DNA of 64,000 nt from Candidatus Lindowbacteria bacterium RIFCSPLOWO2_12_FULL_62_27 (GTDB lineage: Bacteria; Lindowbacteria; 2-12-FULL-62-27): the NCBI GenBank assembly GCA_001784175.1, contig MFPR01000028.1, positions 327,614 through 391,613 of the forward strand. Direction: 5' to 3'. Within the stretch, counting starts at the first letter, position 1, and each line of letters opens with the position of its first letter. Positions 12,670 to 36,846 of the stretch are shown one piece after another. The notes beneath the pieces are model-generated. The model ran no database searches. It saw only the letters and a program-made list of their open reading frames with translations, and had not been told where the DNA came from. Position numbers and translations under genes: made by a program.

Positions 12670-14918
12670 CGCCCATCCTCCATCAGGCCGGCCGGTTCCT
12701 GATTTATTTCTCCCTCCTCGTCATTCCCGTCGCCAACGCGCCGATCACCGCCGACACGCTCGAAATCAAGGCGCATCTCTTCCGAATCCTCGGCGCCGCC
12801 GCCGCGCTCCTCTCCTTCGCCGCGGCCGCGACCGGCCGGCCCCGGCATCCCGACGCAGTCGACCTGGCACTCGCCCTGTGCTGGACGGCGCTGGCCGCAA
12901 GTGTCTTCGGCGCGGACAGCCGGCCGGCGGCCCTGCCGGGCGCTCTGGACGTGGCGGCGTCCCTGGGATTTTTCGGTCTGGCCCGCACGGTTTTTTCCGG
13001 ATCGCAAAGCCCGCTGCCATCGGCGCAAATCTCAAACCGGCTGATGTGGGTGGTGGGCCTCTCGGCCGTCCTTCCCGCCCTGCTTTTTTTGGGTGAATAC
13101 AAACGGATCGGCATTTCAGACACGCTGGGCAATCAGAACGTGGTCTCGCACTATCTGATCCTGTGTCTCAGCGCGCCACTTTTTGTGCTTCTGTCTTCAT
13201 CCCCCCATGCATTGGGGGGAAAGAGGGGGGTCTCCGCATTTCTGTTTTTTCTCGCCCTCCTCTGGGTGATCTGGCTGACGGCCGCGCGCGGCGCCGTGGT
13301 CGGCCTTCTGGTGTCGGCCGCTGTCGTTGCCGTTCTCTGGACGGTGCGGGCGTGGCGCCGGATCGCGCGTCACATGCGACTCGCGCTGTGCGCCGCCTGT
13401 GTCATCCTCACGCTCGCCGCCCCCGCGCTCCTGTACCGATACGCCACCACGACCGACTTCAACGTCTCGGTCCGGTTCCTGAGCTGGAAATACTCCATCT
13501 CGCTTCTCTCGGGCAATCATCTCTGGTTTGGATGCGGCCCGGGAACGTTCAGCGCCGCCTTCGAAAAAACCAAACTCTGGATGACGGACCGCGACGCCGA
13601 ACTTTTGGGCCACCTCAGCGTTAATTACGCGCACAACGACTACGTGGAATTCGCGGTCGAACAGGGAGCGCTGGGTCTCACGGCGTTTTTGTTTCTGGTC
13701 TTCGCCAGCCTCTCGCCCCCCGCATCGCGCTGGATCGCGGGGCGGCCGCATGCCGCCGCCGGAACGGCCATGCTGGCCGCGCTCGTCGCGAGCCTGTCCC
13801 AGGCGTTTTTTGATTTCCCTTACCATGTTCCGCCGCCCCGCATGCTGTTCTACATCCTGCTTGGCGCCGTATCGGCGCCGCCCCGCGACGCGTCCGAGCC
13901 GGAGACCGCGCCTGAAACGGCGCGGTCGTGGATGGCGGCCATCGCGGTTATGGTTCTCTCGATTCTTCCCGCGTTGCCCGTCGCGCCGGTCTACTCGGCG
14001 TCGATGCTCTCTCGCGTGGCCGAATCTCCCTTCAAGTCCGGCCGATACCAGGAAGTCCGCCACCTCCACGCGATGGCCCAATTCGCCGATCCGACTCGCA
14101 GCCTCTACGCATTCCGGCGGGGTCTGGGGGAAGAGCAGGCGGGGATGCTTCAGGAGGCCGTCCAGTCCTTCAAGTCGGCGCTCGAACTTCAGCCCTATTT
14201 TCCCAATCTCTACTTCCATCTCGGTACCTCGGCCCTGAACACCGACCCGTCGCGCGCCGCGACGGCTTTCTACGCGGCGACGGCCTTCGGGGTCAATACC
14301 GTCGCCCTTCATAATCTCGCGGCCATGGGACTTGCCTTGGGCGACAGCCCCGCCGCCGCGGCGATTTACACCGAAATCGCCCGCATGAATCCCGAGGACC
14401 ATCAGGCGCGTCGCAACGCCGAGGTTCTGCTCATGCGGGAACACCGCGCCAAATCCGAAACGTTTCGGCGCGCAAGCGAATTCTACCAGCGCGGGCAGAT
14501 GGACCTCGCCGAACCGGCCGCGGAGAGGTACCTGAAAGAACAGCCGGATGATCCCGACGGCATTTTCCTCTACGCGCGCATTCTCTTTCACCGAAACCGC
14601 CAGGAGGAGTCCGGCCGGTTCTTGAAAAAATATCTCGCCCTCGTCCCGGACGACCCGGAAGGATATTATTATCTGGGGAACGTCCATTTCATGGCGAACC
14701 GGTATCCGGAATCCCTTGGCCTTTTCCTGAAGGCCGCCCGGCTGAATCCCGAATCGCCCAAAATCCATTACAACCTTGGCGTGAGCTATTTTTCTCTCGG
14801 TGACACCCAGTCGATGAACGACTGCTTCGACACGGTCCTTCGGATCAATCCAAATGTTTCGACCCGGCCGAAAATCGAGGAAATCCGGCGCGCCGCGCGG
14901 CAGGGCCGGCGGCCATGA
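12666..14918 (+). CDS. O-antigen ligase/polymerase-like membrane protein with C-terminal TPRs
   Basis: A 750-residue protein from a GTG start inside a GTGA overlap. Residues 1-410 contain about ten to twelve membrane helices and the WaaL/Wzy signature: TAARGAVVGLL, FGCGPGTF and NYAHNDYVEFAVEQGALGL, the last being the conserved periplasmic H-N-x-Y/F segment with its following G. Residues about 440-750 are tetratricopeptide repeats, for example GYYYLGNVHFMANRYPES and KIHYNLGVSYFSLGDT. The architecture matches O-antigen ligase-family proteins that attach or polymerise glycans at the outer face of the inner membrane; the TPRs probably bind a partner. The acceptor (lipid A-type core or protein) cannot be told from sequence. 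Confidence 0.78.
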   Translation: MTPILHQAGRFLIYFSLLVIPVANAPITADTLEIKAHLFRILGAAAALLSFAAAATGRPRHPDAVDLALALCWTALAASVFGADSRPAALPGALDVAASLGFFGLARTVFSGSQSPLPSAQISNRLMWVVGLSAVLPALLFLGEYKRIGISDTLGNQNVVSHYLILCLSAPLFVLLSSSPHALGGKRGVSAFLFFLALLWVIWLTAARGAVVGLLVSAAVVAVLWTVRAWRRIARHMRLALCAACVILTLAAPALLYRYATTTDFNVSVRFLSWKYSISLLSGNHLWFGCGPGTFSAAFEKTKLWMTDRDAELLGHLSVNYAHNDYVEFAVEQGALGLTAFLFLVFASLSPPASRWIAGRPHAAAGTAMLAALVASLSQAFFDFPYHVPPPRMLFYILLGAVSAPPRDASEPETAPETARSWMAAIAVMVLSILPALPVAPVYSASMLSRVAESPFKSGRYQEVRHLHAMAQFADPTRSLYAFRRGLGEEQAGMLQEAVQSFKSALELQPYFPNLYFHLGTSALNTDPSRAATAFYAATAFGVNTVALHNLAAMGLALGDSPAAAAIYTEIARMNPEDHQARRNAEVLLMREHRAKSETFRRASEFYQRGQMDLAEPAAERYLKEQPDDPDGIFLYARILFHRNRQEESGRFLKKYLALVPDDPEGYYYLGNVHFMANRYPESLGLFLKAARLNPESPKIHYNLGVSYFSLGDTQSMNDCFDTVLRINPNVSTRPKIEEIRRAARQGRRP

Positions 14919-17216: not shown

Positions 17217-18628
17217 ACGTCGATCAGGTCCGGGCCGGCATGGCCCGCGAGATGCACTCGATGCCGTCGGCCGCCCGCCGGGAGATGGTCGAGACCCTGC
17301 GGACGCTGGCGATGCGGCGCAGCATCACCTACGAATACGACAAATCGAGCGGAGAAGAGCCCATCCGGATTTTGTTCCCGCCCGTCCTCCTCGATCAGGC
17401 CGATCTCAGGCCGATCTACGACGTCAGCCTCCGGATGTCTCACGCCTGCGAGCGGGCCCTCGGCCTCTTCCTGGAACGTGAGGACGTCCGGAACATCCTG
17501 CCGCTGGAATATGAAGAAGAGCGCTTTCTGTTCGGCATTTCCCCTGAGTCTCACGCGCGGTCGCCCGCGATCTGGCAGAGGCTCGACGCGGCGATGGATC
17601 CGGCCCGGCCCATGGACACGCTCCGATTCCTTGAAACCAACATGAATTCCGTTGGCGGCGTTTACTACGCGCCGGCCGTCGAAAAGCTGTCGATGGAAGT
17701 CGTGTTGCCCAAGCTCCTTCACCCGCCGCAACTCGACCGTGTATCGCCCCTCGATGATCTCGAAAAACTTCTGTACGCCCTTCTCTGCCGCCACGCCCGC
17801 CGCCTCGGGATTTGGTCCCCGGCCGAAGCCCCGTTTCCGCACGTCCCCCTGCGCGTCGCGGTGGTCGAAAACGATCCCGGCGCCGAGGGGCCCACCGAGA
17901 CGCCCGCCGCGATCGAGGGACTCTGCGCCATGGGTGCCGACGCCTTCGCCGCGCGCCCCGAGGAGTTCGAAATCCGCGGCGACCAGCTCATTCATCTCGG
18001 CCGGACGGTCGATCTCGTCTACCGGCTGTTCGAAATACGCGAACTCATGGAAATGAAACCGATCGAAGCGCTCAAGCTCGCCTTCGCCGGCAACCGCGCC
18101 GTGTCCGGCGCCGGGGGCGAGTTCGACCACAAGAGTGTTTTTGAATTGTTCACCTCGGCGGCCTTCGACCGCCTGTTCTCGGCGGAGGACCGCCGCGCGT
18201 TTCGGGCCCATGTCCTCTGGACCCGGCTGCTCAGGGAAACCTTCACCGACGCGCCGGACGGATCCAAAATCGATCTCCCAGAATTCGCCTTCCGCGCCCG
18301 CGACGCGCTTGTCCTCAAACCCAACCGCTCCTACGGCGGCGACAGCATCGTGATCGGAAGAGAAACAGACGACGGGACGTGGCAGTCAGCCGTCGATCGC
18401 GCCATGTCCCAACCGGACCGGTTCGTCGTCCAATCGGTCTGCCCCCTGGCCGAGATGCCCTTCACCGTGATCGACCCGGCCGGCGGCGCGGTCGAGGAGC
18501 GCCTCAAGGTCGTCTTCGGCCTTTCCTCCACGCCCGACGGATTCGGCATCATCGGCCGCGCCTCGCGGTCCTCCGTCGTCAACGTCGCCCGGCACGGAGG
18601 CCTCACGCCGGTCCTCCAGGCTTCTTAA
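17201..18628 (+). CDS. ATP-grasp domain protein, circularly permuted or glutathionylspermidine-synthase-like
   Basis: A 475-residue protein starting with GTG inside the DUF885 gene. The C-terminal region carries an ATP-grasp signature: ALVLKPNRSYGGDSIVIG (nucleotide-binding strand and glycine loop, Lys conserved), FVVQSVCPLAEMPF (adenine-binding strand) and a late GIIGRASRSSVVNVARHGG segment that matches the metal-binding arginine/asparagine part. This order is typical of proteins annotated as circularly permuted ATP-grasp or glutathionylspermidine synthase-like, which form amide bonds via an acyl-phosphate. The substrate is unknown. It converges on, and overlaps by 4 bp, the rhodanese gene on the other strand. 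Confidence 0.65.
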   Translation: MSKTVNVDQVRAGMAREMHSMPSAARREMVETLRTLAMRRSITYEYDKSSGEEPIRILFPPVLLDQADLRPIYDVSLRMSHACERALGLFLEREDVRNILPLEYEEERFLFGISPESHARSPAIWQRLDAAMDPARPMDTLRFLETNMNSVGGVYYAPAVEKLSMEVVLPKLLHPPQLDRVSPLDDLEKLLYALLCRHARRLGIWSPAEAPFPHVPLRVAVVENDPGAEGPTETPAAIEGLCAMGADAFAARPEEFEIRGDQLIHLGRTVDLVYRLFEIRELMEMKPIEALKLAFAGNRAVSGAGGEFDHKSVFELFTSAAFDRLFSAEDRRAFRAHVLWTRLLRETFTDAPDGSKIDLPEFAFRARDALVLKPNRSYGGDSIVIGRETDDGTWQSAVDRAMSQPDRFVVQSVCPLAEMPFTVIDPAGGAVEERLKVVFGLSSTPDGFGIIGRASRSSVVNVARHGGLTPVLQAS

Positions 18629-19050
18629 CCGGTGTAGGCGCGACCGGGCGGGTTCCCACTTTCTATCGGTAATCCTTCCTGGCTCCACCCCTTCATGGCA
18701 ATAAACCCGGATGGATCACGTGTGCCGCCGTAGCCGCCCTGAACATTGGCCAGAGACTCAAACCCCGCGGCTTCCAGTATCTGGCACGCCTTTTGCGACC
18801 GGCCGCCCGCCATACATCCGATCACCAAGCGTTTGGTTTTTGGGAATATCTTCTCCACCTTTTCCTTGAAATCCGGGTTTGGAACCATCTGTCCGGATTC
18901 ATCTCGAACCATCACCGGAACATTGTACGCCCCTTCCGGGTGCCCCGCCTCATATTCCTCCACGGTGCGAACGTCCAGATAGATCGCAGGATTTGTTGAA
19001 TCTTCCATTTGTTCAGACGCGATCCCGGGGGTAATCTGTTCGATTGCCAT
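18625..19050 (-). CDS. Rhodanese-like sulfurtransferase
   Basis: A 141-residue single rhodanese domain. The active-site loop is IGCMAGGRS with the catalytic cysteine, and the preceding AIYLDVRTVEEYEAGHPEGA is the conserved D-V-R entry strand. The loop length of six residues between Cys and the next helix fits the sulfur-specific (not phosphatase) type. A strong GGAGGTGA ribosome-binding site precedes the ATG at 19050. No signal peptide, so cytoplasmic. It could feed persulfide sulfur to the sulfur-carrier system encoded at 8.5-12.7 kb, but it is on the other strand and separately transcribed. Confidence 0.88.
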   Translation of the reverse strand: MAIEQITPGIASEQMEDSTNPAIYLDVRTVEEYEAGHPEGAYNVPVMVRDESGQMVPNPDFKEKVEKIFPKTKRLVIGCMAGGRSQKACQILEAAGFESLANVQGGYGGTRDPSGFIAMKGWSQEGLPIESGNPPGRAYTG

Positions 19051-19154: not shown

Positions 19155-20675
19155 ATGGACTCCCTCTTTGACCAGAACCGCCGGTTTCTGCAGTCGCGGT
19201 TTCCAAGCGCTTTGGAAGCCTACCAGAAGGCCGTGCCGCCGCCGGCGAGCGGGCCGGACTGGATCGAGCTTCCCCTGCCGCTGCCCGGCGCGCCCAAACT
19301 CAGGTTGTCGGCCGGGCATGACGCGTTTGTGGAGGAACATCAGAGAACGCTGGCCGGCGCCGCGAAATTCGCGGGCGCCATGGTCTGGGGCGTCCGGACG
19401 GCCGACGATCTCGAATTCTACTGGCATTCCCTTCCGCGCCGGCCTTTCGTCTATCTCGAATCCGACCCCGCCGTCTTCGCGCGCGTTCTGCAAAAGGTCC
19501 GGCTGGACCGGCTGTTCGGCGAGTCCGGCGCCCGCATCGCGTTCGCCAGCGACTGCGGGGAACTCATGTCGGAAATGGCCGTCGCGTTCGGCGAGGAGGA
19601 GTTGACGGCGTCCCGGATCGGGTTTCTCTTCGAACCCTCCCTCTTTTCCCGCCTGCTCGCCGAGGACCATCCGATGGGGCGATTCGTCAATCTGATTTTA
19701 AAAAATGTTTTTCTGAACCGCAGCGAGGAGGAAATGATGCAGGCGAAGGAGGGGCTCAAAGAGAAGCAGTTCATCGATAAAATATTTCCGCCCGCCTACC
19801 TCTACCAGTCGATGCAACGCTTCCTGAACCTCCTTGCGGTCGCGTCGCCCGGGATCCGCACCCTCTATCGCGAAATGACCCGGCCGGTGGACGCGCGGGC
19901 CGTTCTGCCGGTGTCCATCGTCATCCTCGCATGGAACCGCTGGGACCTCACCGAGCGGTGCCTGCGGGCGCTCTGCTCCCATCCGTTGCCGGCCGACAGC
20001 GAGATCATCGTCGTCGACAACGGCTCGACCGACCGCACGCCGGAGATGCTCAAGGCGCTCGCCGAAAGGCTCCCGCCGCTCCGGCCCCTGACCCTGCCCC
20101 GCAACCTGGGTCCGGCCGGCGGCCGGGACGAGGCGGCCAAGATCGCGCGCGGCAAAACGCTCGTGTTCCTCGACAACGACGTCGAGATCAAGCACGAACG
20201 CTGGCTCGACATTCTGCTGGAGCCGTTCCTGTTTTACCCCCGCGTCGGGTCCTGTGGGGCCTTCGGCGTCATCCACACGCACGACGAGTCCGAGACATGG
20301 TCGCAAAAAATCGTGTTCCCCGGACTGGTCGTACCGGTCTCGTGGATTTCCTCTTTTTGCCTTGCGGTCCGAAAGCAGGCGCTGATCGAGTGTGGCGGCT
20401 GGCGGCCCGATCTCTATCCGCTCTACGGCATGGAGGACGTCGCGCTCGGGTATGCGCTTCGCGAAGCCGGCTGGATCTCCGTCGTGCCGGGACAGTTCGT
20501 CCCCGTCACCCACGGCATGAACCACAAGGACGGGCACTACGACTACGATTTCGTGGACAGCGGAAAACGCAACTCCGAAATCTTCTCGAAAATCTGGGGC
20601 CCCCGCCGCCGCCTCCTCAACGCCGCACGCGGCAACCGGACCCTCGCCACCATCGTTTCCTCCCCTGCGGCGTAA
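19155..20675 (+). CDS. Glycosyltransferase family 2 with unknown N-terminal domain
   Basis: A 506-residue protein. Residues about 1-245 form an unidentified domain with Rossmann-like stretches (RPFVYLESDPAVFARVL, ARIAFAS), loosely like the MAF/DUF115 domain of flagellin-modification proteins. Residues about 250-500 are a GT-A family 2 catalytic domain: SIVILAWNRWDLTERCL, IIVVDNGSTDRT (UDP-binding loop), NLGPAGGRDEA, VFLDNDVEI (the DxD site, here DND) and GMEDVALGYALREAG, the late ED catalytic-base segment. It is followed after 16 bp by a NUDIX gene, a pairing repeated at 28.4-29.6 kb. Cytoplasmic; the product is unknown but a surface or secondary-metabolite glycan is likely. Confidence 0.8.
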   Translation: MDSLFDQNRRFLQSRFPSALEAYQKAVPPPASGPDWIELPLPLPGAPKLRLSAGHDAFVEEHQRTLAGAAKFAGAMVWGVRTADDLEFYWHSLPRRPFVYLESDPAVFARVLQKVRLDRLFGESGARIAFASDCGELMSEMAVAFGEEELTASRIGFLFEPSLFSRLLAEDHPMGRFVNLILKNVFLNRSEEEMMQAKEGLKEKQFIDKIFPPAYLYQSMQRFLNLLAVASPGIRTLYREMTRPVDARAVLPVSIVILAWNRWDLTERCLRALCSHPLPADSEIIVVDNGSTDRTPEMLKALAERLPPLRPLTLPRNLGPAGGRDEAAKIARGKTLVFLDNDVEIKHERWLDILLEPFLFYPRVGSCGAFGVIHTHDESETWSQKIVFPGLVVPVSWISSFCLAVRKQALIECGGWRPDLYPLYGMEDVALGYALREAGWISVVPGQFVPVTHGMNHKDGHYDYDFVDSGKRNSEIFSKIWGPRRRLLNAARGNRTLATIVSSPAA

Positions 20676-20691
20676 TAGTTCAAAATCGAAG

Positions 20692-21126
20692 ATGCGCCGG
20701 GAGGTGGTCGTGGTCCTCCCCTACGCCGGCGGCCGAGTGCTCATGCACCTGAGGGACAGGAATGCGAAATACAATCCGGAGATGTGGGGATTCTTCAGCG
20801 GCGGCGTTGAACCCGGCGAAACGCCGATGGAATGCGCGCTCCGGGAAATCGAGGAGGAAATCAATTTGAAGCCGGCGGCGATCCATAAACTCGACAGCCG
20901 CCAATCGGAGGACCTCACCCACGTCGTTTCGCACGCCTTTTACTGCGCCCTCGATGTCCCGCTCGATTCGCTCATCCTGCGGGAGGGCCTCGATTCGGGA
21001 CTGTTTACGGTGGAGGAAATTGAGAGCGGGCAACTGTATTCCGGGAAATTCAAACGGCCTTTCCCGGTGGCGCCCTTCCGCTACATTCCGAACACCGTAA
21101 AAAGACTCTTCAAACGTCTCGAATAA
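20692..21126 (+). CDS. NUDIX hydrolase
   Basis: A 144-residue NUDIX protein. The Nudix box starts GGVEPGETPMECALREIEEE and fits G-x5-E-x7-R-E-U-x-E-E, with asparagine in place of the late glycine. The preceding MWGFFSGG is typical of nucleotide-sugar or (d)NTP hydrolases. It forms a pair with the upstream glycosyltransferase and has a clear paralogue at 29171-29617, sharing VVxLPY near the start, the MWGFF(S/G)GxVE core, a SHxF(Y/F)CAL segment and SG(Q)L at the end. The likely reaction is hydrolysis of a nucleoside diphosphate linked to X; the pairing suggests a nucleotide sugar. Confidence 0.88.
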   Translation: MRREVVVVLPYAGGRVLMHLRDRNAKYNPEMWGFFSGGVEPGETPMECALREIEEEINLKPAAIHKLDSRQSEDLTHVVSHAFYCALDVPLDSLILREGLDSGLFTVEEIESGQLYSGKFKRPFPVAPFRYIPNTVKRLFKRLE

Positions 21127-21136
21127 AACTCCGGAA

Positions 21137-21152
21137 CCTGACTTTCGTCAGG
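21137..21152. terminator. Hairpin between convergent genes
   Basis: CCTGAC-TTTC-GTCAGG forms a perfect 6-bp stem with a 4-base loop between the convergent NUDIX and oxygenase genes. There is no long T-tract on either strand, so it is a weak terminator at best. Confidence 0.35.
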
Positions 21153-21159
21153 ACGGCCG

Positions 21160-22050
21160 TCAGGCGGGATTGCCCGTGTGCCGCGCGTGCACCAGGCAGT
21201 CGGTCTCCATGGTGTAGAGCCCGAAGAACCACCGGCCCTTCATGCTGCTCCAGTCGGGATTCAGGGTGTCCATGTCCACCGGATTGACGCCGTGCGTGAC
21301 CGTTGGGTAATTGATGACGGCGTCGCCGACCCGGGTCCTTCCCTCGGACGTGACCTCCCGGCCCTGCTGGTCGATGAAGTAGAGGCCGCCGGATCGAAAG
21401 TCCACGTCGAGCTGCGTCATCTGAATGCTCATGATGGTTCTTTGATGGCCCCACGGGTCCTGGTGCCGCTCGATGTAGCCGATCCCCGCGGGATAGTGCG
21501 CCACGACGATCCGGTCCACCAATCCGTCGCTCGGAATGTTGCGGACGCATTCGTCCGGGTCGAACCCGCCCCACTTCTTTGTGTAGGACCAGAACTCGTT
21601 GATCATCGGCCACACGCCGAACGGGTCCGGATTGTGGCGGAAGAAGTAGTAGTCATGGCGCGGATACTTCAGCGCGTATTTCTTCACAATGTCCGGCGTG
21701 ATGATCCGGTGAAAATTCGGGATGCCGTCCTGAACCTTGTGGAAACTCGGCTCGACGGTCTTGCCCCACTCGTGCAGCTCTTTCCGCAGCCTCCGGAGCT
21801 TGTCCTCCGGCACGACCCCGCGGATGATGTAGGCGTCGCCGGCGAACATCGACTCGGTGAATTCCCGGTCGTAACTGTCCACCCGCTTCTTGAATTCGGA
21901 GAATGTCACCTCCCGAAGCTCCCGCATGAACGCGGGCGCGTGGGAGGGCGCCTTTCCATCCGGCGGCACGCCGTTGAGACTTTCGAGTTCCGCCAGATAC
22001 TTGTTTCCCCCGCCGCTCCAGTACCTCTGAGAGGTTCGCAGATCCGCCAT
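21160..22050 (-). CDS. 2-oxoglutarate/Fe(II)-type oxygenase
   Basis: A 296-residue protein. The facial triad of the double-stranded beta-helix fold is visible: HxD in IERHQDPWG, and the distal histidine in PTVTHGVNPV, with GLYFIDQQG between them. A downstream arginine (GRWFF) could bind 2-oxoglutarate. It is the last gene of a minus-strand operon, 26 bp after the second B12-type radical SAM gene. Members of this broad family hydroxylate, halogenate or desaturate small molecules and peptidyl substrates. With two radical SAM enzymes it probably tailors the same product. No signal peptide. Confidence 0.72.
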   Translation of the reverse strand: MADLRTSQRYWSGGGNKYLAELESLNGVPPDGKAPSHAPAFMRELREVTFSEFKKRVDSYDREFTESMFAGDAYIIRGVVPEDKLRRLRKELHEWGKTVEPSFHKVQDGIPNFHRIITPDIVKKYALKYPRHDYYFFRHNPDPFGVWPMINEFWSYTKKWGGFDPDECVRNIPSDGLVDRIVVAHYPAGIGYIERHQDPWGHQRTIMSIQMTQLDVDFRSGGLYFIDQQGREVTSEGRTRVGDAVINYPTVTHGVNPVDMDTLNPDWSSMKGRWFFGLYTMETDCLVHARHTGNPA

Positions 22051-22076
22051 GAAGTCAACCCGCCTTTCTTCGGAAA

Positions 22077-24119
22077 TTAAACTTGGACGGTGGCTGAATA
22101 GATGTTGGGCGCGAAGTAGGTGACCCGGGAACCGTTTTTCCCGGTGCTCATCGCATTGAAAACCCGGCTGCCACGCACATCCAGATAGTATTTCAAAAAC
22201 CGGTCCCGCGCGCCGTGGGACGGCAACATGTCTTCCACCTCATATACGAAGTGCCCCTCTTCCAGCGGCACGCGCCGGCCCTCCGACATTTGTTCGACAT
22301 AGTCGGGCACGTCATGCTGAAGCGTCAACGTCGGCGTCGGCGGGCCTTCCCAGTGCGCCAGAAAATGGCGCTGGGTCTTGAAAAGATCCGCCATCATGGT
22401 CTCCGGAACTTCGACGTTCCGCCGCTTCAGATACTCCCGCAAGAGTTGCTCCATCTCGCCGAAAAAGTCGTTCCGCCACGCCATGGTGATCAGGTACACC
22501 GCCTCCGACGCCGTCCAGTGGGCTTCGTCAAAGCCCGGGATCACGTTCAAGTAATCCCGGTTGTCGTTGAGCAGGCCGTCGATCCGCGCGTCCAAATACC
22601 GCATGATCCCCGCCATCTTGGGGTACCGGCCCGAGGGCGCCTCCGCCAGACAGTAATCGGCAAACCCGGTCACGGGAACGCTGTATTCGTTTTTCAGAAA
22701 CATGAGCGGCACAAAGTAGCTCCGGTGGTCGTACAGCGCCAGCGTGAAAAACGCCGTCTTGTAGGCCTTCCGCCACATCTCATGCGGCATGGTCTTGGTC
22801 GAGATCACCACGTCCTCGAATTCCTCCACCACCTTGTCGGAGCCGGCCGTGCGGTAAAACCCGAAGGGGATCCGGCGCGTCTTGATTTCGTGCTCCCGGA
22901 TCTGGTCCGGCAGGGCCATCTCTGTGTTTTCGAGAATGGAGGCCAGATACACGAAAATATGGTCGTCCAGAGAATTCGTCAGCATTTCTTCTATTCCCGA
23001 CAGAAACGTGTCATAGGTCTCCTCCGGCAGGGGCAGGATGAGTTCGGTGTAGGTGGGCATGTCCTCCCGGCTGAAGGCCTCTTTCAGTTCCCGGTACGTG
23101 CTGAGCTTGATGTTCGAGCGCTTGACAGCCTTCAGGGTCTTTTCGTTGGTGCTCTGCAGGGACAGCCCGACTTTAAAGCCGACGCCGCCCTTCCGGAGCG
23201 TCTTGGCGTTGCCCATCACCTTCATCGAACTGTTCTTGACCCAGCTCACCGACAGGTACCGCGGATTGCCGTATTTTTCCTTGACGGCGACCAGCATCTC
23301 GGCGATTTCCTGGTCGCGCATCTTGATCCCGAAATTCGCATCGGCGCAGTTGATGTAGGAGATGCCGTTCTTCCCCATCCACTCCAGTTCCTCCCGCAGG
23401 ACGTTGATGTCAAAATACCGGACCTCCATCCCAATGGCCGTGCCCCAGTTGCAGAACGTGCAGGAGAAGGGGCATCCGCGGTTCGTCTCCCAGATGACGC
23501 CCGAAAACCAGTCCTTGTGGCGCGTGTACAGATCCGTGAACGTCCCGTCCAGAAACGGCGAGGGAATCGCCGCCAGGTCCTGAACGAACGGCCGCTCGCC
23601 GGTGAACACATGCTCTTTCCCGTTCCCGACGCCGGCTCGGTACGAAATCCCCTTGACCGCCGACAAATCCGGCGTGGGGCTCCGCAGGTACGCCAGCGCC
23701 AAATCTTCGAGCAGGACTTCGTCGCTGTGACACAGAATGTCCACGCACGCGTGCTTGCGGAAAAATTCCGCCTTTCGATCCTCCAGGTTCGGCACCGAAG
23801 GACCGCCGAACACCACCACGGCCTCGGGATATTCCTGCTTGACCAGCCGTGCCACCGCCAGTGTCAGTTCAATGTTCCACATGTAGACCGAAAAGGCAGC
23901 GATGGTCGGATGGTCCATCCGCGCTACGATCTTGGCGGGATCCTCCCTCAAAAACAGGATCTCTTCGAGTCGGTACCCTTTGACAATGTCCGGATTTCGG
24001 CGCAGGACAGAATAAAGCCGTCCCGCCGAAAGAGGCATGAGGTTCTTGGAAAATCCCGTCGCAAACTGGCAGAGCTGGATGCCCGGTTTCTCAACTCGGG
24101 CGAATGCCGCAGGCGCCAT
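22077..24119 (-). CDS. B12-binding-domain radical SAM protein
   Basis: A 680-residue enzyme. Residues about 1-170 form a cobalamin-binding-type Rossmann domain (AAFSVYMWNIE, VVVFGGPSVPN) without the DxHxxG base-off motif, as is common in this class. The radical SAM cluster ligands are in GCPFSCTFCNWG (CxxxCxxC) near residue 217, followed by the barrel signatures INCADANFG and the late TYTELILPLP. The last 230 residues (HEMWRKAYKTAFFTLALYDHRSYF onward, in part) are a family-specific C-terminal domain that I do not recognise. It is 23 bp downstream of another B12-type radical SAM gene and probably catalyses methylation or a rearrangement on a shared substrate. Confidence 0.85.
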   Translation of the reverse strand: MAPAAFARVEKPGIQLCQFATGFSKNLMPLSAGRLYSVLRRNPDIVKGYRLEEILFLREDPAKIVARMDHPTIAAFSVYMWNIELTLAVARLVKQEYPEAVVVFGGPSVPNLEDRKAEFFRKHACVDILCHSDEVLLEDLALAYLRSPTPDLSAVKGISYRAGVGNGKEHVFTGERPFVQDLAAIPSPFLDGTFTDLYTRHKDWFSGVIWETNRGCPFSCTFCNWGTAIGMEVRYFDINVLREELEWMGKNGISYINCADANFGIKMRDQEIAEMLVAVKEKYGNPRYLSVSWVKNSSMKVMGNAKTLRKGGVGFKVGLSLQSTNEKTLKAVKRSNIKLSTYRELKEAFSREDMPTYTELILPLPEETYDTFLSGIEEMLTNSLDDHIFVYLASILENTEMALPDQIREHEIKTRRIPFGFYRTAGSDKVVEEFEDVVISTKTMPHEMWRKAYKTAFFTLALYDHRSYFVPLMFLKNEYSVPVTGFADYCLAEAPSGRYPKMAGIMRYLDARIDGLLNDNRDYLNVIPGFDEAHWTASEAVYLITMAWRNDFFGEMEQLLREYLKRRNVEVPETMMADLFKTQRHFLAHWEGPPTPTLTLQHDVPDYVEQMSEGRRVPLEEGHFVYEVEDMLPSHGARDRFLKYYLDVRGSRVFNAMSTGKNGSRVTYFAPNIYSATVQV

Positions 24120-24142
24120 GTCCCGTCCCGGGGTGCGTCCGG

Positions 24143-25753
24143 CTAGAAGCCGAAGCTGACCGGGGTTGTCGCTTTTTCCCGGCTCATCTCGACCCCGGGA
24201 TAGGTCTGTGCGCCGGGAGACCGGTGATCGCCGTGGTGTTCCACCTCGGTCGTTTTCGAGCCGTTGTTCCCGTGGCCGTTCTTTTTCTCGCGCATTTTCA
24301 TCAGATTGTCCTGGACGCTCTTGAAGGTGCTCGTCCGGAGACCCTCCAGTTCATCCAGCGTGATGCCCATCATTTTGGAGAGCTTTTCCCGCTTCTTCTG
24401 GGTTCTGAAATTAATCCGTTCCCATTCATACGCGCGGATGATCGTGATGTCCTCGGGGGTCCACTCGTTGGACACGATCTGGGTGGTCGACCAGTTCATG
24501 TCCTTCATCTGGCCGCTCGTGTCCGCGTGGGTCGCCAGGAGATTGTTCTCCATCGCCATCTTCGCAAGCTCCGTGCCCTCCAGCGGCGTCGCGATGAAAA
24601 ACTTGGCGTAGTCCGGATCGATCTCCTGCGCGAACGCGAACGTCTGGCGGATCTCCTCCCAGGTTTCGGTGGGGAAGCCGATGATGAAGTTGGTGATGAG
24701 GTCCATCCCGGCCTCCTTGATCTTCATCGAGACATGCCGCGCCGACTCCAGCTTCACGGGCTTGTGGATGATGTCCCGCAGCACGCGCTCGGTCCCCGAT
24801 TCAACCGCGAGCGCCACCGAACAGCAGCCGGACCGCGCCATCAGATCAATGATCTCGTCGTTCATGTGAAACACCGCCACCGCGTGGGCCTTCCAGCTCA
24901 GGTTCATTTTCAGGTCGATCAGCTTGTTGCAAAATTCCTTGACGCGCGGCCGGTTGATGAAAAAGTTGTCGTCGTCCATCATGAAGGACTTGATCCCGTA
25001 GTCGGCCTGCAGCCACTGAAGTTCCTTGATGACATTGTCGACGCTCCGGTACCGGAAGGGCCCGCCCGTGATGAGTTCCACTTCACAGAAGGTGCAACCG
25101 ATCGGACAGCCCCGCGACGTCATCATGCGGGTATAGGGGTAGAGATAGGGGTGATCCACGGTGACCTTACCAACCTTGTTCGAGTACTCTCCATAATTGA
25201 CCATGTCCCAGGCCGGATACGGCAGGGCATCCAGGTTCTGAATGAAGGGGGCGCGCTGAAGCTTGTCGGGAATCGTCTGCTCTCCGTCTTTCCGGCCCAG
25301 AAACCCGGCCGGCGGAAATGAGCCGCGGCCGTTCAGATACTGGAGAAGTTCCTGAAAGACATACTCCCCTTCGCCGACGCAGATGTAGTCAAAATTCTTG
25401 TCGTTGTAGATGGTCTTGTACGAAACCGTCGCATAGACCCCGCCCACCACGGTGATGATATCCGGACTGATTTCCTTGACGTATTTCGCGCCAAGGTGAA
25501 CCGACTCCCAGTATTCGTTCGTAAGAAGGGTCAGGCCCACGAGGTCGGGATCCAGGTCTTCGATGATTTTCTTGAACTGTTCTGGAGTATAGTCATGCGC
25601 GTTCCCGTCCACGACCGTTACGTCATAATCCTTTCGGATCATCGCCGCCAGCAGACACAAGTTCATCGGATGGACATCCCAACTGGTTTTCCAGTTCCAG
25701 TCGATCCATTTCATGTTCGGCTGAACCAGCACGATCTTCTTAACGCCAGACAT
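24143..25753 (-). CDS. B12-binding-domain radical SAM protein
   Basis: A 536-residue enzyme, first gene of the minus-strand operon. The N-terminal 170 residues are the cobalamin-type domain (IVLVQPNMKW at the start, TVVDGNAHDYTPEQF, ITVVGGVYATVSY, FDYICVGEGEY). The cluster motif GCPIGCTFCEVE (CxxxCxxC) is near residue 215, then FMMDDDNFF and VALAVESGTERVL of the barrel. The C-terminus is a charged low-complexity tail with KKNGHGNNGSK. An AGGAGGGG ribosome-binding site precedes the ATG, and a near-consensus sigma-70 promoter with a palindromic operator candidate lies just upstream. BchE/HpnJ-like layout; the reaction is not predictable. Confidence 0.85.
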   Translation of the reverse strand: MSGVKKIVLVQPNMKWIDWNWKTSWDVHPMNLCLLAAMIRKDYDVTVVDGNAHDYTPEQFKKIIEDLDPDLVGLTLLTNEYWESVHLGAKYVKEISPDIITVVGGVYATVSYKTIYNDKNFDYICVGEGEYVFQELLQYLNGRGSFPPAGFLGRKDGEQTIPDKLQRAPFIQNLDALPYPAWDMVNYGEYSNKVGKVTVDHPYLYPYTRMMTSRGCPIGCTFCEVELITGGPFRYRSVDNVIKELQWLQADYGIKSFMMDDDNFFINRPRVKEFCNKLIDLKMNLSWKAHAVAVFHMNDEIIDLMARSGCCSVALAVESGTERVLRDIIHKPVKLESARHVSMKIKEAGMDLITNFIIGFPTETWEEIRQTFAFAQEIDPDYAKFFIATPLEGTELAKMAMENNLLATHADTSGQMKDMNWSTTQIVSNEWTPEDITIIRAYEWERINFRTQKKREKLSKMMGITLDELEGLRTSTFKSVQDNLMKMREKKNGHGNNGSKTTEVEHHGDHRSPGAQTYPGVEMSREKATTPVSFGF

Positions 25754-25788
25754 AGGCTCCCCTCCTCATCAGGGTTTAGAGTTTTTCA

Positions 25789-25802
25789 TCTATACGTATA
25801 GA
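25789..25802. promoter_or_regulatory. Perfect 14-bp palindrome at predicted transcription start
   Basis: TCTATACGTATAGA is a perfect palindrome located 7-20 bases downstream of the -10 box, across the expected start point of the radical SAM operon. The position fits a repressor operator. No candidate repressor is identified, although two membrane winged-helix proteins are encoded immediately upstream. Confidence 0.5.
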
Positions 25803-25808
25803 CTTGTA

Positions 25809-25837
25809 ATTCTATTCATATTTCCGAGACGTGTCAA
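25809..25837 (-). promoter_or_regulatory. Sigma-70 promoter for radical SAM operon
   Basis: On the minus strand TTGACA (25837-25832) is separated by 17 bases from TAGAAT (25814-25809). Both boxes are at or near consensus, in an AT-rich gap of a GC-rich genome, about 55 bases before the first B12-type radical SAM gene. Confidence 0.75.
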
Positions 25838-25862
25838 GAAAAGACGACAAAAAAATCAGGTA

Positions 25863-26408
25863 TTAGGTAACCCCCAGAACCCGCTTCAACAACCCGATCG
25901 CCTTCGCCTGCAGAAACATCTGCGACCGGCTGATTCGGTAGATCCCGGCGCTTTCGCGCAAGTAGCCGGCGCCGACCAGTTTGGCCAGACGAATCTTCAA
26001 TATCGTCTCATCGCTGTAGGCGTCGCGCAACTCCGCAGGCGTCGCCGAGCCGCCGGGCCGTTTGTCCAGCTCCAGCAGGATCCGGATCCGCACGGCCGCT
26101 TCGCCCATGCCGAAGACCCAGGACAGATAATGGAGGGTGAGCAGGGAATAAACGGCCGGCGTGGAGAGACCTGCCAGCCGGCGGGCAGCGATCGTATACT
26201 CGGGAAAAATCGGCGCCGTTCCAATCAACCCCCACGCCCCTGCGCAGGCGGCCATAAAGCCGCACGCGAATGAGAACGCCAGCGGCAGCGTCAATTGCCG
26301 CGGTCTCAGATACCGGAACACAATCACATGAACGACCAGAAACAAGACAAAGGCTGCTGCGGCCGCGCCAAAGACATAAAGGTCAATCCCGTGGATCCCC
26401 GCCCCCAT
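25863..26408 (-). CDS. Membrane protein with C-terminal winged-helix-like domain (paralogue 1)
   Basis: A 181-residue protein. About four hydrophobic segments occupy residues 8-110 (VFGAAAAAFVLFLVVHVIVF, LAFSFACGFMAACAGAWGLI and others). The cytoplasmic tail from about residue 112 reads like a winged helix: IRILLELDKRPGGSATPAELRD, ETILKIRLAKLVGAGYLRES and a wing GIYRIS. The gene lies 3 bp after a second protein of the same plan, so the two are probably partners. No DNA-binding specificity can be read. The arrangement suggests a membrane-bound regulator or a scaffold. The family is unknown to me. Confidence 0.55.
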   Translation of the reverse strand: MGAGIHGIDLYVFGAAAAAFVLFLVVHVIVFRYLRPRQLTLPLAFSFACGFMAACAGAWGLIGTAPIFPEYTIAARRLAGLSTPAVYSLLTLHYLSWVFGMGEAAVRIRILLELDKRPGGSATPAELRDAYSDETILKIRLAKLVGAGYLRESAGIYRISRSQMFLQAKAIGLLKRVLGVT

Positions 26409-26411
26409 GCC

Positions 26412-26924
26412 TCAGCCCCCTGCCTCGAGCCGAAACAACTGCCGGTAGGCTCTCATCAGCCGCGCCACCCGCCGGCCGCCGGGTTGAAGCGTGTACCGGG
26501 CGCCATCGAATGCGATATACCCGCTGGCGACAAGGTCGTCCAGCCGGCTCTGAACGATTCTCTCGCCGGTCAGATAGTCTTTCAACTGCACATGGCTCGC
26601 TTCCGCGCCGGCCGACCGGTTCACGAACTCCAGGATCTTCATCGACGGACTCCCGTACGGAACAAGGTTGCATTCCAGGATGTAGCAGAGGCAGAACAGA
26701 AAAAAGAGCGCCATCGACGTGAAGGCCAGCGGCACGTTCCAAAATCCCGTCCCGGCGGGCATCCCTCCCCCGACGGCCCACACCGCCCCATACACCGCCA
26801 GCCACAGGACCGCCAGTCCAAGGAGTTTCGGAAGCTCCACGCACATGACACCGGCGCGGGCCAGAAGGATATGGGTGGCCACAAACAGGAGGAAAAACAG
26901 AACCCCCATCGCGAGCCAGAACAT
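26412..26924 (-). CDS. Membrane protein with C-terminal winged-helix-like domain (paralogue 2)
   Basis: A 170-residue protein from the ATG at 26924; the frame stays open far upstream but only as antisense of the HemN-like gene. Residues 1-95 contain three to four membrane helices (FWLAMGVLFFLLFVATHILL, LLGLAVLWLAVYGAVWAV, AFTSMALFFLFCLCYI). The tail is a winged-helix-like domain: MKILEFVNRSAGAEASHVQL, RIVQSRLDDLVASGYIAFDG and RYTLQPGGRRVARL. It has the same layout as the next gene, suggesting an old duplication and a heteromeric pair. It is divergent from the HemN-like gene, with 120 bp between. Confidence 0.55.
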   Translation of the reverse strand: MFWLAMGVLFFLLFVATHILLARAGVMCVELPKLLGLAVLWLAVYGAVWAVGGGMPAGTGFWNVPLAFTSMALFFLFCLCYILECNLVPYGSPSMKILEFVNRSAGAEASHVQLKDYLTGERIVQSRLDDLVASGYIAFDGARYTLQPGGRRVARLMRAYRQLFRLEAGG

Positions 26925-27044
26925 GCCCGCGTTTCTACCGCCGCCGCCGCGTATTGTCAATACGCCGTCCACCGCCGCCGCGCGGGGCCGGTTTGACAAC
27001 TGCCGGCCGGACGGATATAGTTGGCCTGTGAAGGAGACACGAGG

Positions 27045-28430
27045 ATGAACCTGAATCCGGCGCTGATTGAGAAGTATTCGGTGATCGGCCCATACTATTC
27101 GAGCTATCCGCCCCTGGGCGAGTGGAAGGAGGATTTCCGGACGGCCGACTTTGAGCAGGCCCTCGGCCGGTTCTGCGCGGAGGACACGCCCGCCGAGCCC
27201 AACACGTACGCCTTCTATGCGCACTATCCGTACTGTATCCAGCTCTGCTATTTCTGTCTCTGTAACATGCGCGTGACGCAGGACAAGGCCGTGAAAGAGA
27301 GGGCCCTTCGCGCGCTCGCCCGCGAGATCGACTACTTCCGGCGATTCATCGACGCCCAGCCGCGCCAGCCCGTCTGCAAGGAAATCCATCTCGGCGGCGG
27401 CACGCCCTCCTTCATGGACAACGAGGATTTCGACGGATTCATCGCCGCCATCAAGTCCCTGGTCGACACCTCGACGGTCGAGGAATTCGCGATGGAGATC
27501 GACCCGCGGACCGTGACGCCCGAATCGATCACCCACTTCGCGACGAAAGGGATCAACCGGATATCGTTCGGGATACAGGATTTCAATCCCCGCGTCCAGG
27601 AGGCCGTCAACCGCGTCCAGCCCCTCGACCACGTCCGGGCCCTCCTCTCGCCTGAAATCCGAAACATCTACAAGAGCGTCAACTTTGACATTCTCTACGG
27701 TCTGCCCCTCCAGACCCGGCAGACGTTCCGGGAGACGATCGGGATCGTCAAGGAACTCATGCCGGAACGCATCACCCTCATCCGCTATGCCCACGTGCCC
27801 GGCATCAAAAAACACATGAAACTCCTCAACGAGGCCGACATTCTCTCCGAGAAGGAAAAAGTCTGCATGTTCATCGAAACGGTCGAAAGCCTCCTGGACG
27901 CCGGCTACGAGCACGTCGGGATCGACAATTTCGCCAAGCCAACCGATTCGCTCGGCAAGGCCTTCCGGAACAAGACCGTGTGGCGGAATTTCAGCGGGTT
28001 CACGCCCGGCCGCGTCAAAAACATGATCGGCGTCGGCCCGTCCGCCACCAGCATCTTTTCCGGCATCTACTCCCAGAACATCTACGACATCGGCGCCTAT
28101 CATCAGACCGTCGAGCGCGGCCAGTTCCCGCCGCTCGAACGCGGCTACCGCCTGCGCCGGGATGACCTGATCCGGCGCGAGGTCATCCTGAGGATCGCCT
28201 GCGACAACGACCTCGACTTCGACCAGATCGGCGAAAAGTTCGGGATCGAATTTCACACGTATTTCAAGGATGAACTGCAGTCGCTGGACGAGTTCGTGAA
28301 CGACGGCCTCGTGGAGCGGAACGGCCGCAGTCTCACTGTCACGCCGCTCGGGCGGTTTTTCGTCCGGCACGTCTGCAAGGTCTTCGACGGGTTTCTCAAG
28401 AGCAAGACCTATCAGATACACGGGACCTGA
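27045..28430 (+). CDS. HemN-like radical SAM protein
   Basis: A 461-residue member of the oxygen-independent coproporphyrinogen III oxidase superfamily. The cluster motif is YPYCIQLCYFCLCN with Cys64, Cys68, Cys71 and Cys73, the CxxxCxxCxC arrangement of HemN. EIHLGGGTPSFM and RISFGIQDF are the next barrel signatures, and the C-terminal HemN domain is present (LRIACDNDLDF, GLVERNGRSLTVTPLGRFFVR). An AAGGAG ribosome-binding site is 8 bases before the ATG at 27045. True HemN makes protoporphyrinogen in heme synthesis; relatives act as methyltransferases or cyclopropanases. With a glycosyltransferase and NUDIX next door, a biosynthetic relative is as likely as a heme enzyme. Confidence 0.8.
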   Translation: MNLNPALIEKYSVIGPYYSSYPPLGEWKEDFRTADFEQALGRFCAEDTPAEPNTYAFYAHYPYCIQLCYFCLCNMRVTQDKAVKERALRALAREIDYFRRFIDAQPRQPVCKEIHLGGGTPSFMDNEDFDGFIAAIKSLVDTSTVEEFAMEIDPRTVTPESITHFATKGINRISFGIQDFNPRVQEAVNRVQPLDHVRALLSPEIRNIYKSVNFDILYGLPLQTRQTFRETIGIVKELMPERITLIRYAHVPGIKKHMKLLNEADILSEKEKVCMFIETVESLLDAGYEHVGIDNFAKPTDSLGKAFRNKTVWRNFSGFTPGRVKNMIGVGPSATSIFSGIYSQNIYDIGAYHQTVERGQFPPLERGYRLRRDDLIRREVILRIACDNDLDFDQIGEKFGIEFHTYFKDELQSLDEFVNDGLVERNGRSLTVTPLGRFFVRHVCKVFDGFLKSKTYQIHGT

Positions 28431-28442
28431 GCCGGGCGTGAC

Positions 28443-29174
28443 ATGGCGGGTCCGTCCGGCGAGGTGGAAGTAACCTTTTTTGTTCCCTGCCTGAACGAAG
28501 AAAAGAACATCGTTCCCTCCATCGAAACGATCCTGGCCGCCGTCCGCATGGCCGGATGCACCTTTGAAATCATCGTCGTCGACGATCATTCCGCCGACCG
28601 GTCCGTGCCGGTCGTCGAAGACTACATGGCCCGGCATCCGGACCTGCCCATCCGCATCGTCAAGAACAGCCGGCGACAGGGCCTGTCGCGCAATTACACC
28701 GACTGCGCGTTTATCGGCCGGGGAACCTATTACAAATTTTTCGGCGGGAGCAACATGGAATTGGCCAACGATGTGGCGGCCGCGCTCAGGCTCAGGGGGA
28801 CCGCCGACATGATTGTGCCCTATCCCGTCGATGACAAGCGGACCCTCAAGAGAAGGATCATCTCGAAGCTCTACGCGAACATCGTCAGTTGGATCACCGG
28901 CTACCGCCTCCGGTATTACAACGGACCCATCCTCCACAGGCGCTACAACGTCATGCGCTGGCATGCCGACTCCTACGGCTACGGCTACCAGGCCGAAATC
29001 ATCACGCGCCTCCTCAACGAGGGCGCGACCTTCGTCGAGGTCGCCATGAGCAACTCGGACCGGGCCGCAGCCGTCAAATCGAATGCCTTCAAGCTGCAAA
29101 ACGTGCTGTCCGTCACGCACAGCCTCCTGCAGATATTATTTCGAAGCCTCCGCCGAAGGTGGTTTCACGTTTGA
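28443..29174 (+). CDS. Glycosyltransferase family 2 (dolichyl-phosphate-mannose-synthase-like)
   Basis: A 243-residue GT-A enzyme. FFVPCLNEEKNIVPSIE, EIIVVDDHSADRS and NSRRQGLSRNY are the nucleotide-sugar binding elements. The usual D-x-D strand reads YYKFFGGSNME, so the acidic metal ligands seem to be lost or shifted, which is unusual. A basic C-terminus follows (RSLRRRWFHV). It starts 12 bp after the HemN-like gene and its stop overlaps the TTG start of the NUDIX gene. Polyprenyl-phosphate glycosyltransferases have this size, but the membrane segment is not evident. If the missing DxD is real, it may be inactive or use a different metal site. Confidence 0.75.
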   Translation: MAGPSGEVEVTFFVPCLNEEKNIVPSIETILAAVRMAGCTFEIIVVDDHSADRSVPVVEDYMARHPDLPIRIVKNSRRQGLSRNYTDCAFIGRGTYYKFFGGSNMELANDVAAALRLRGTADMIVPYPVDDKRTLKRRIISKLYANIVSWITGYRLRYYNGPILHRRYNVMRWHADSYGYGYQAEIITRLLNEGATFVEVAMSNSDRAAAVKSNAFKLQNVLSVTHSLLQILFRSLRRRWFHV

Positions 29175-29617
29175 CGGCGGACGTGGTGGTGATTCTCCCG
29201 TACGTGGAAAACAGGGTGCTCCTCCAGCTCAGGGATTTCAATGCAGGCATCGTGTTCCCCGGCATGTGGGGCTTTTTCGGCGGAACGGTAGAAGCGGGCG
29301 AGGCGCCGAAGGATTCGGCGATCCGGGAACTCGTGGAGGAAATTGAATACCGGCCGGCCGAGATGCGCCTTCTGGAGACCGAAGTCGTCACGGAACTGGA
29401 CAATCTCGTTTCACATTCTTTTTTCTGCGCCCTGACCGCGCCGCTCGAAAAGCTGGTCTTGCACGAAGGACTCGATTACGGCCTTTACACGCTCGACGAA
29501 GTCCTGTCCGGGCAACTCCATTCCAGGAAATTAAACAAGCCCATGCCGGTCATCCCCGTGTCGTATGTGCCCCGCGCCGTCCGGAAATTGATGGCCCGGC
29601 TGGGCGTTATCCGGTAA
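29171..29617 (+). CDS. NUDIX hydrolase (paralogue of the 20.7 kb gene)
   Basis: A 148-residue NUDIX protein. I place the start at the TTG (29171) that overlaps the glycosyltransferase stop as TTGA, because it gives the same N-terminus (ADVVVILPY) as the paralogue at 20692. The Nudix box GGTVEAGEAPKDSAIRELVE continues with EIEY, so G-x5-E-x7-R-E-x-x-E-E is kept. It is coupled to a second family 2 glycosyltransferase, repeating the GT2/NUDIX pair found 8.5 kb upstream. It converges on the PHP gene, with 11 bp of overlap. Confidence 0.83.
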   Translation: MTADVVVILPYVENRVLLQLRDFNAGIVFPGMWGFFGGTVEAGEAPKDSAIRELVEEIEYRPAEMRLLETEVVTELDNLVSHSFFCALTAPLEKLVLHEGLDYGLYTLDEVLSGQLHSRKLNKPMPVIPVSYVPRAVRKLMARLGVIR

Positions 29618-35893: not shown

Positions 35894-36846
35894 CGCAGGT
35901 CCGGTCTGGCGGTGCGCGGGATCGGATAGGTGGGGTTGAAAAGCACGCTGAGGAAAATAAATGTTTTCTCAAGTCTCGACAGGGCCACGCGCCGTTCCAA
36001 AACCGGGAATCCGCCCGATTCGATCTTCACCAGAATCCTCGCATAGAGCGACGCCATCATCGCCACCGTCCGCCGCGCGACCGCGGACAGGTGCGTGAGG
36101 AGGGGATAGGCCATTTCGTAGTGCTGCCGGGCCCGGGCCGCGTTGATCGCGCACACCCGCAAAAACGCCTCCGTCGGCGTCCCGTTCAGAATGTCCGACT
36201 CCCGGCAGCCCGTCGTCGCCAGGTCCTCCTGCGGCAGGTAAATCCGGCCGCGCTGCGCATCCTCCTGGACGTCCCGCAGAATGTTGGTGAGCTGAAGGGC
36301 GATTCCGAGATTTTCCGCCATCTGTTTCGCCTGCGACTGCCGGCAGCCGAAGAGTTCCAGACAAATCAGGCCAACGCTCGACGCCACCAGCCGGCAGTAA
36401 TCCTTCAACGCGTCAAAGGTCACGTAGCGGTTCACCGTGAGGTCCCGCTCGGCGCCGTCCAGAATGAGTTCGAGATATTCGGGCGTCAGCGAGAATCGCG
36501 TCACCGTGTCCGCCAGCGCCGCCATCGCCGGATGCAGGCCCGACGTTTCGCCGGCCAGCGCCCGGCGCAGGTCACTGCGGAGTTGCCGGAGCTTCGCGAG
36601 CCGGTCGGGCGGATCAGCGCCTCCGGCGCCCCAAGTGCCGGCGTCTCCGACGCCGGCCGCGGCGGTCCCGGTGTCGGCGCCGAGGTCGGCCAGATCGTCG
36701 GCCTGACGCGCAAAGGCGTAGACGGCGAGCATCCCGTTTCGACGGGGTTGCGGCAAAAACCGGAATGCCCAGTAGAAGTTGCCGGCCTCCGCGCTCGCGA
36801 TCCGGTCGCAGTGAAGGTAGGCGCGAGACAGCGCAAGCGATGTCAT
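35890..36846 (-). CDS. hpnD: Presqualene diphosphate synthase HpnD
   Basis: A 318-residue trans-isoprenyl diphosphate synthase (squalene/phytoene synthase family). The first aspartate motif is AFARQADDLADLG and the second is RDVQEDAQRGRIYLP. The start at 36846 overlaps the hpnC stop as ATGA. Between the first aspartate motif and the next helix there is a 20-residue glycine/alanine-rich stretch (GVGDAGTWGAGG) absent from the family consensus; it is encoded by a palindromic repeat element shared with two other genes. It joins two farnesyl diphosphates at the membrane. The insertion is in a loop, and the reading frame is intact. Confidence 0.9.
   Translation of the reverse strand: MTSLALSRAYLHCDRIASAEAGNFYWAFRFLPQPRRNGMLAVYAFARQADDLADLGADTGTAAAGVGDAGTWGAGGADPPDRLAKLRQLRSDLRRALAGETSGLHPAMAALADTVTRFSLTPEYLELILDGAERDLTVNRYVTFDALKDYCRLVASSVGLICLELFGCRQSQAKQMAENLGIALQLTNILRDVQEDAQRGRIYLPQEDLATTGCRESDILNGTPTEAFLRVCAINAARARQHYEMAYPLLTHLSAVARRTVAMMASLYARILVKIESGGFPVLERRVALSRLEKTFIFLSVLFNPTYPIPRTARPDLR
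36614..36654 (-). repeat. Palindromic coding repeat element, copy A (in hpnD)
   Basis: A 41-bp GC-rich element made of two small hairpins, GGCGTC-GGA-GACGCC and GGCGCC-GGA-GGCGCT, joined by GGCACTTGG on the minus strand. Thirty-nine of its bases are identical to 49366-49404. Inside hpnD it is translated as a GVGDAGTWGAGGA loop directly after the DDxxD motif. Confidence 0.85.

Follow-up and report, generated by a model that had tools for sequence, protein, structure and literature searches.

A nine-kilobase accessory gene block with a recurring glycosyltransferase and membrane-protein core, a candidate surface-glycan module in a Lindowbacteria genome

In multi-component transmembrane glycosylation, a GT-A glycosyltransferase that makes a C55-P-sugar is combined with a small flippase of 3-4 transmembrane segments and a GT-C/YfhO transferase (PMC8035078). 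Here, we describe a nine-kilobase block of genes from Candidatus Lindowbacteria bacterium RIFCSPLOWO2_12_FULL_62_27, contained in a 64,000-nucleotide stretch of contig MFPR01000028.1 (positions 327,614 to 391,613; the window), that calls for comparison with such machineries. Similarly to the CsbB/GtcA/YfhO and GtrABC systems, the block combines a GT2 glycosyltransferase, GT2b, whose profile matches dolichol-phosphate mannose synthase (DPM) among other GT2 types, with small polytopic membrane proteins. By contrast, these proteins, mwh1 and mwh2, match no Pfam or NCBIfam family above cut-off, end in a winged-helix-like tail and make up a heteropair, and the block lacks a GT-C enzyme and adds radical S-adenosylmethionine (SAM) enzymes. 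We put the probability that the block is an accessory module for a cell-surface glycan, located next to a core polysaccharide locus, at roughly 0.5.

This reading is supported by a part of the block that recurs elsewhere. A profile search with mwh1 and mwh2 over 376 genomes matched four other genomes, three of which (G062, G086 and G294) have a tandem pair in the window order, mwh2 then mwh1. Each window protein scores best against its own counterpart in these three genomes, and the two are distinct paralogues. In G086 and in G062, where the contig ends, the gene preceding mwh2 is a relative of GT2b, so that GT2b, mwh2 and mwh1 are contiguous on one strand. Among the fetched loci, the G086 gene is the sole match to GT2b at E≤1e-8 outside its own genome (E=5e-26); its own best matches are the G062 gene and then the window GT2b. 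In G294, mwh2 comes directly after a B12-binding radical-SAM gene; in G086, an open reading frame (ORF) whose translation, on inspection, has B12/radical-SAM character is found upstream of GT2b. The pair thus occurs in three unrelated genomes, two of which have a GT2b orthologue next to it and two a B12 radical-SAM gene beside or near it. The original prediction had been staked on conservation of gene order in other genomes: the full ten-gene set was found in none, but the sub-module of GT2b, the mwh pair and a B12 radical SAM does recur. Judged from these comparisons, unrelated bacteria share a conserved, undescribed core of GT2b-mwh2-mwh1, accompanied in most cases by a B12 radical SAM.

The likely functions of this core can be approached by analogy. 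The GT2b profile covers DPM synthase (E=6e-8 over 14-214), with other GT2 types scoring similarly. That mwh1 and mwh2 are small membrane proteins, as predicted, is borne out; neither they nor their scanned counterparts match any Pfam or NCBIfam family above cut-off, a GtrA- or Wzx-type flippase included, and mwh1 shows at most a weak helix-turn-helix hit (E=0.03). Pfam detects no GT-C glycosyltransferase within 19155-29617. Behind the G294 pair comes a YfhO-like protein, whose Pfam match (E=2.5e-6) narrowly misses the cut-off. Because the tests for a flippase and a GT-C enzyme failed in the block, we do not claim that it belongs to the multi-component systems; by analogy, GT2b and mwh2/mwh1 could fit their first two roles, those of the GT-A enzyme and the flippase. 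A search of plasmids found no relatives of the window mwh1 or of the G086 pair.

The block extends from NUDa to NUDb (20692-29617) and, together with the flanking GT2a, comprises ten genes, all of which lie where the original prediction had placed them (19155-29617):

19155..20675, + strand: GT2a, GT2 glycosyltransferase, flanking core gene outside the accessory block (PF00535, E=2e-27)
20692..21126, + strand: NUDa, NUDIX hydrolase, left edge of the block (PF00293, E=2e-15)
21160..22050, - strand: 2OG, putative Fe(II)/2-oxoglutarate oxygenase (H196-x-D198, H253, R273)
22077..24119, - strand: RS1, by homology a cobalamin-dependent radical-SAM C-methylase of the TokK/CysS type
24143..25753, - strand: RS2, B12-binding radical-SAM enzyme; best models HpnJ and Sden_1168
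25809..25837, - strand: sigma-70-like promoter match before RS2 (11/12; consensus match only)
25863..26408, - strand: mwh1, small membrane protein with a C-terminal winged-helix-like domain
26412..26924, - strand: mwh2, small membrane protein paralogous to mwh1, 3 nucleotides (nt) from it
26993..27021, + strand: sigma-70-like promoter match before HemN (11/12; consensus match only)
27045..28430, + strand: HemN, member of the oxygen-independent coproporphyrinogen III oxidase family (TIGR00538)
28443..29174, + strand: GT2b, soluble GT2, similar to polyprenyl-phosphate-sugar synthases
29171..29617, + strand: NUDb, NUDIX hydrolase, right edge of the block (PF00293, E=8e-14)

Comparison with the two other members of the family, G001 and G002, separates the block from its neighbor. 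Both genomes have GT2a orthologues (55-57% identity), with no NUDIX gene adjoining them; the N-terminal 248 residues of GT2a match no family. In G001, GT2a and a PHP gene are convergent, with overlapping ends and dnaG nearby; because GT2a adjoins the PHP-dnaG genes directly there, the whole NUDa-NUDb block is absent from this genome. In G002, GT2a is followed by other genes and then, within 5 kb, by the best relative of RS1 found (30%). The window also encodes a Wzy_C O-antigen-ligase domain and a TPR tail in a single ORF (12252-14918), and a membrane protein that looks alike, as judged by eye, lies near GT2a in both G001 and G002. These sequence relationships place GT2a in the gene core of the family and outside the block. 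Since GT2a is core, the block is missing from G001 and the Wzy_C look-alikes accompany GT2a in both relatives, the block is an accessory unit adjoining a core surface-polysaccharide locus.

The closest solved relatives of RS1 are TokK and CysS, enzymes of antibiotic biosynthesis. RS1 aligns with TokK over its residues 27-506 (E=1.2e-77) and with CysS (E=5.7e-52); the homology spans the N-terminal cobalamin-binding and radical-SAM domains, about 480 residues in all. The cluster-binding motif CxxxCxxC is present as RGCPFSCTFC, and RS1 Trp81 is aligned with TokK Trp76 and with the CysS Trp; a Trp beneath the cobalt is on record for TokK and has been proposed for CysS. RS1 thus resembles the TokK/ThnK/CysS methylases in its extended homology, cluster cysteines and the Trp below the cobalt, and differs from them in having no beta-lactam or nonribosomal peptide synthetase (NRPS) context and in scoring 267.9 bits against the NCBIfam KedN5 model, whose cut-off is 700, so that it is not counted as a member of the KedN5 subfamily. 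It is probably a C-methylase of the TokK/CysS type. In G261 and G383, the surroundings of RS1 relatives include adenylation-like and asparagine-synthase-like genes. The window genome has another RS1-like gene elsewhere (28%; L043:8513-10672), with a GT2a-like gene some 16 kb away.

Of the three radical-SAM proteins originally predicted, all borne out by Pfam/NCBIfam matches, two had been assigned to the B12 type. The assignment holds for RS2 (B12-binding domain, 73.8 bits against the Pfam cut-off of 32.1); for RS1, the domain match is weak and falls below the same cut-off (23.1 bits), but the extended homology to TokK/CysS speaks for it. RS2 shares the B12-binding and radical-SAM domains with HpnJ/Sden_1168-type enzymes; its two top models, HpnJ and Sden_1168, tie in score. 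It differs from these enzymes in gene neighborhood and in its scores, which amount to roughly one-third of each curated cut-off, e.g., 178.7 bits against 578 for HpnJ (TIGR03471). The closest relatives of RS2, with 40% identity in G120 and 33% in G064 and G310, lie amid epimerase-, transketolase- and phosphoheptose-isomerase-like ORFs, as judged by reading their sequences. At another locus (L104:2074-4782), radical-SAM/SPASM and dehydrogenase-E1 genes are located beside phosphoheptose-isomerase-like ORFs, and similar sets are found near the RS2 relatives (L107-L109); perhaps these gene sets encode an unusual sugar pathway.

The third enzyme of the minus-strand run is likely, but unproven, to be an Fe(II)/2-oxoglutarate (2OG)-type oxygenase, as the original prediction had it. 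The assignment is favored by the conservation of H196, D198, H253 and R273 (HxD...H...R) in one distant relative, from Pseudoroseomonas cervicalis (26% identity). The protein has no Pfam, NCBIfam or PDB sequence match; an AlphaFold2 model has a mean predicted local distance difference test score (pLDDT) of 30, too poor to show a double-stranded beta-helix fold. The distant relative is surrounded by HMGL-like, amidohydrolase and ATP-grasp ligase genes. Close relatives were found neither in genome contigs, viral contigs and phages nor in 386 genomes, and the gene is a near-orphan.

HemN was recognised correctly: it scores 425 bits against TIGR00538 (cut-off 325) and matches E. coli HemN at E=2e-90. 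The equivalents of E. coli Gln311 and Ile329, positions which we take to line the substrate pocket, are Ser and Thr; among seven comparison HemNs, Ile329 is kept in all and Gln311 in six. A literature search on these two positions returned nothing useful. The protein retains CxxxCxxCxC and the equivalents of Tyr56/His58 and Gly111/Gly113, the HemN catalytic residues (PMC10964404). A search at E≤1e-3, which gave HemE matches in 7 of 14 control genomes, found none in the window genome (G000), G001 or G002; these three all encode HemB. The window protein thus resembles coproporphyrinogen III oxidase in its model score, cysteine motif and Tyr/His/Gly residues and differs from it in the Ser and Thr substitutions and in the HemE-less genome. 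As the original prediction recognised, separate housekeeping roles for the genes would undermine a common pathway, but HemN is not a shared housekeeping gene in this family: G001 and G002 have no orthologue-level match, just a distant relative of about 370 residues with 26-28% identity, and all three genomes lack HemE. Together, these sequence features suggest that HemN may have been repurposed.

Two GT2 and two NUDIX genes had been predicted, and both pairs are confirmed by Pfam/NCBIfam matches. The NUDIX genes are indeed paralogues (49% amino acid identity, E=9e-52), but the proposed duplication of a GT2/NUDIX pair fails: GT2a and GT2b share 25% identity over 124 residues (E=1e-5), a likeness at the superfamily level, GT2a is a core gene, and its orthologues have no adjoining NUDIX gene. 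On this evidence only the NUDIX gene was duplicated, its copies now lying behind two different glycosyltransferases. Both proteins retain the catalytic residues of the NUDIX box GX5EX7REUXEEXGU, with its first G, its E and its REUxEE stretch in place and its last Gly replaced by Asn in NUDa and by Glu in NUDb; the AlphaFold2 model of NUDa has a pLDDT of 40. Each enzyme may hydrolyse the nucleotide sugars that its neighboring GT2 consumes. In G081, a relative of both genes (L068:9301-9765, E about 1e-22) stands directly behind a radical-SAM-like gene in a sugar-type cluster.

Transcription runs plus, then minus, then plus: NUDa follows GT2a after 16 nt, 2OG-RS1-RS2-mwh1-mwh2 are on the minus strand, and HemN-GT2b-NUDb on the plus strand, with the NUDb start overlapping the GT2b stop by 4 nt and gaps within the block of 120 nt at most. 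With this layout, and with sigma-70-like sites of 11/12 directly preceding RS2 and HemN, the block is not the single operon first proposed. Consensus matching gives 8 promoter-like sites in the region, where 2.8 would be expected. Recent horizontal transfer finds no support in composition, since the GC content at third codon positions (GC3) is 0.75-0.86 in the block and 0.81-0.88 in the core neighbors; both NUDIX genes fall below most other genes. Long repeats that could mark mobile-element ends were sought inside the block and at its edges, and none was found. A rhodanese-like gene on the left (18625-19050) has lower GC (0.55) and GC3 (0.61) than its neighbors. To the right, 5-8 kb from the block (34586-37691), genes for HpnE (hydroxysqualene dehydroxylase), an HpnD-type protein and HpnC lie in a row, which suggests squalene or hopanoid synthesis; a family B DNA polymerase (37691-40084, 797 residues) follows, an enzyme uncommon among bacteria.

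If the block is a surface-glycan module, GT2b would take a nucleotide sugar as its donor and load the sugar onto polyprenyl phosphate at the inner membrane leaflet, and the mwh2/mwh1 pair would be its membrane partner, an anchor or a transporter of the lipid-linked sugar. RS1 would C-methylate the sugar, or a precursor of it, at an unactivated carbon. RS2 would catalyse a further B12/radical-SAM reaction, the 2OG enzyme would hydroxylate, and the NUDIX enzymes would hydrolyse the pool of nucleotide sugars (or nucleotides) feeding each GT2. The product would decorate the glycan assembled by the neighboring GT2a/Wzy_C locus. In this scheme we infer the identity of the sugar, the order of the steps, the roles of mwh1/mwh2, the NUDIX enzymes and HemN, and the existence of a single common pathway.

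Some of the enzymes also fit other chemistries. RS1, the 2OG protein and the HemN-like enzyme could tailor a small molecule in the way known from the biosynthesis of carbapenem or cystobactamid, and GT2b could glycosylate its scaffold. The roles of TokK and CysS in antibiotic synthesis, the adenylation-like and asparagine-synthase-like genes near the RS1 relatives in G261 and G383, and the HMGL-like, amidohydrolase and ATP-grasp ligase neighbors of the distant 2OG relative all agree with such a cluster; yet the block has no NRPS, polyketide synthase, adenylation or carrier gene, its short gaps leave scant space for a precursor of a ribosomally synthesized and post-translationally modified peptide, and the mwh pair and the DPM-like GT2b suggest membranes, so we regard this alternative as unlikely. 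Less likely still, RS2-RS1-2OG (plus mwh) and HemN-GT2b-NUDb would be two unrelated units that have come to adjoin each other at a variable site and share no pathway. Divergent transcription from separate promoter-like sites, the lack of a conserved link between HemN or 2OG and the other block genes, and the low GC3 of the NUDIX genes are compatible with this, but in G062 and G086 a single strand carries GT2b and the mwh pair, on opposite strands in the window, next to each other, and the two halves are therefore evolutionarily linked. The least probable alternative is a hopanoid or isoprenoid lipid-tailoring cluster, in which RS2 and RS1 would modify squalene-derived lipids supplied by the nearby HpnC/D/E enzymes and GT2b would glycosylate them. 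HpnC- and HpnE-type genes above cut-off, with the HpnD type just below it, and the top rank that HpnJ shares with Sden_1168 for RS2 make it conceivable; against it stand the equal scores of RS2 for the two models, far short of the HpnJ cut-off, its nearest relatives in sugar-type clusters, and an HpnE-like gene, identified by sequence, on the G001 contig that holds dnaG and GT2a though the block is absent.

The surface-glycan module has its own counterweights. No other genome examined holds the complete set; the block has no gene for nucleotide-sugar synthesis, no recognised flippase and no GT-C enzyme; HemN and 2OG have no link to glycans; and RS1 by itself does not imply one, its relatives at L035 and L036 having asparagine-synthase-like and adenylation-like genes as neighbors. 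The mwh proteins match no family, and winged helices are mostly regulatory. The three genomes with the mwh pair all come from the single sample of 376, the core module is known from these three instances, and neighboring genes were identified partly by eye. A literature search for B12 radical-SAM genes within O-antigen clusters yielded nothing useful. The original prediction had left the choice between glycan, lipid and peptide modification open; the glycan option gains from the recurring core, the glycan-like loci and the adjoining polysaccharide locus; the stated basis of the prediction, the duplicated pair, is lost.

The full gene combination is found only in the window genome, and its GT2b-mwh2-mwh1 core has been undescribed so far. 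In a bolder scenario, which we consider improbable, mwh2/mwh1 would be an undescribed heteromeric partner, flippase or anchor, of a DPM-like GT2 and, with B12 radical SAMs, would define a new, widespread class of lipid-linked-sugar modification, into which HemN was here recruited to act on a new substrate, no longer making heme. A HemN that passes its family model in a HemE-less lineage would, if true, caution against taking HemN by itself as a sign of heme synthesis and would point the way to a new HemN substrate. If the surface-glycan reading is right, unrelated bacteria would have in common a portable glycan module made of GT2b and a new tandem membrane pair, usually with a B12 radical SAM, and TokK-like radical methylation would find a place in envelope-glycan chemistry.

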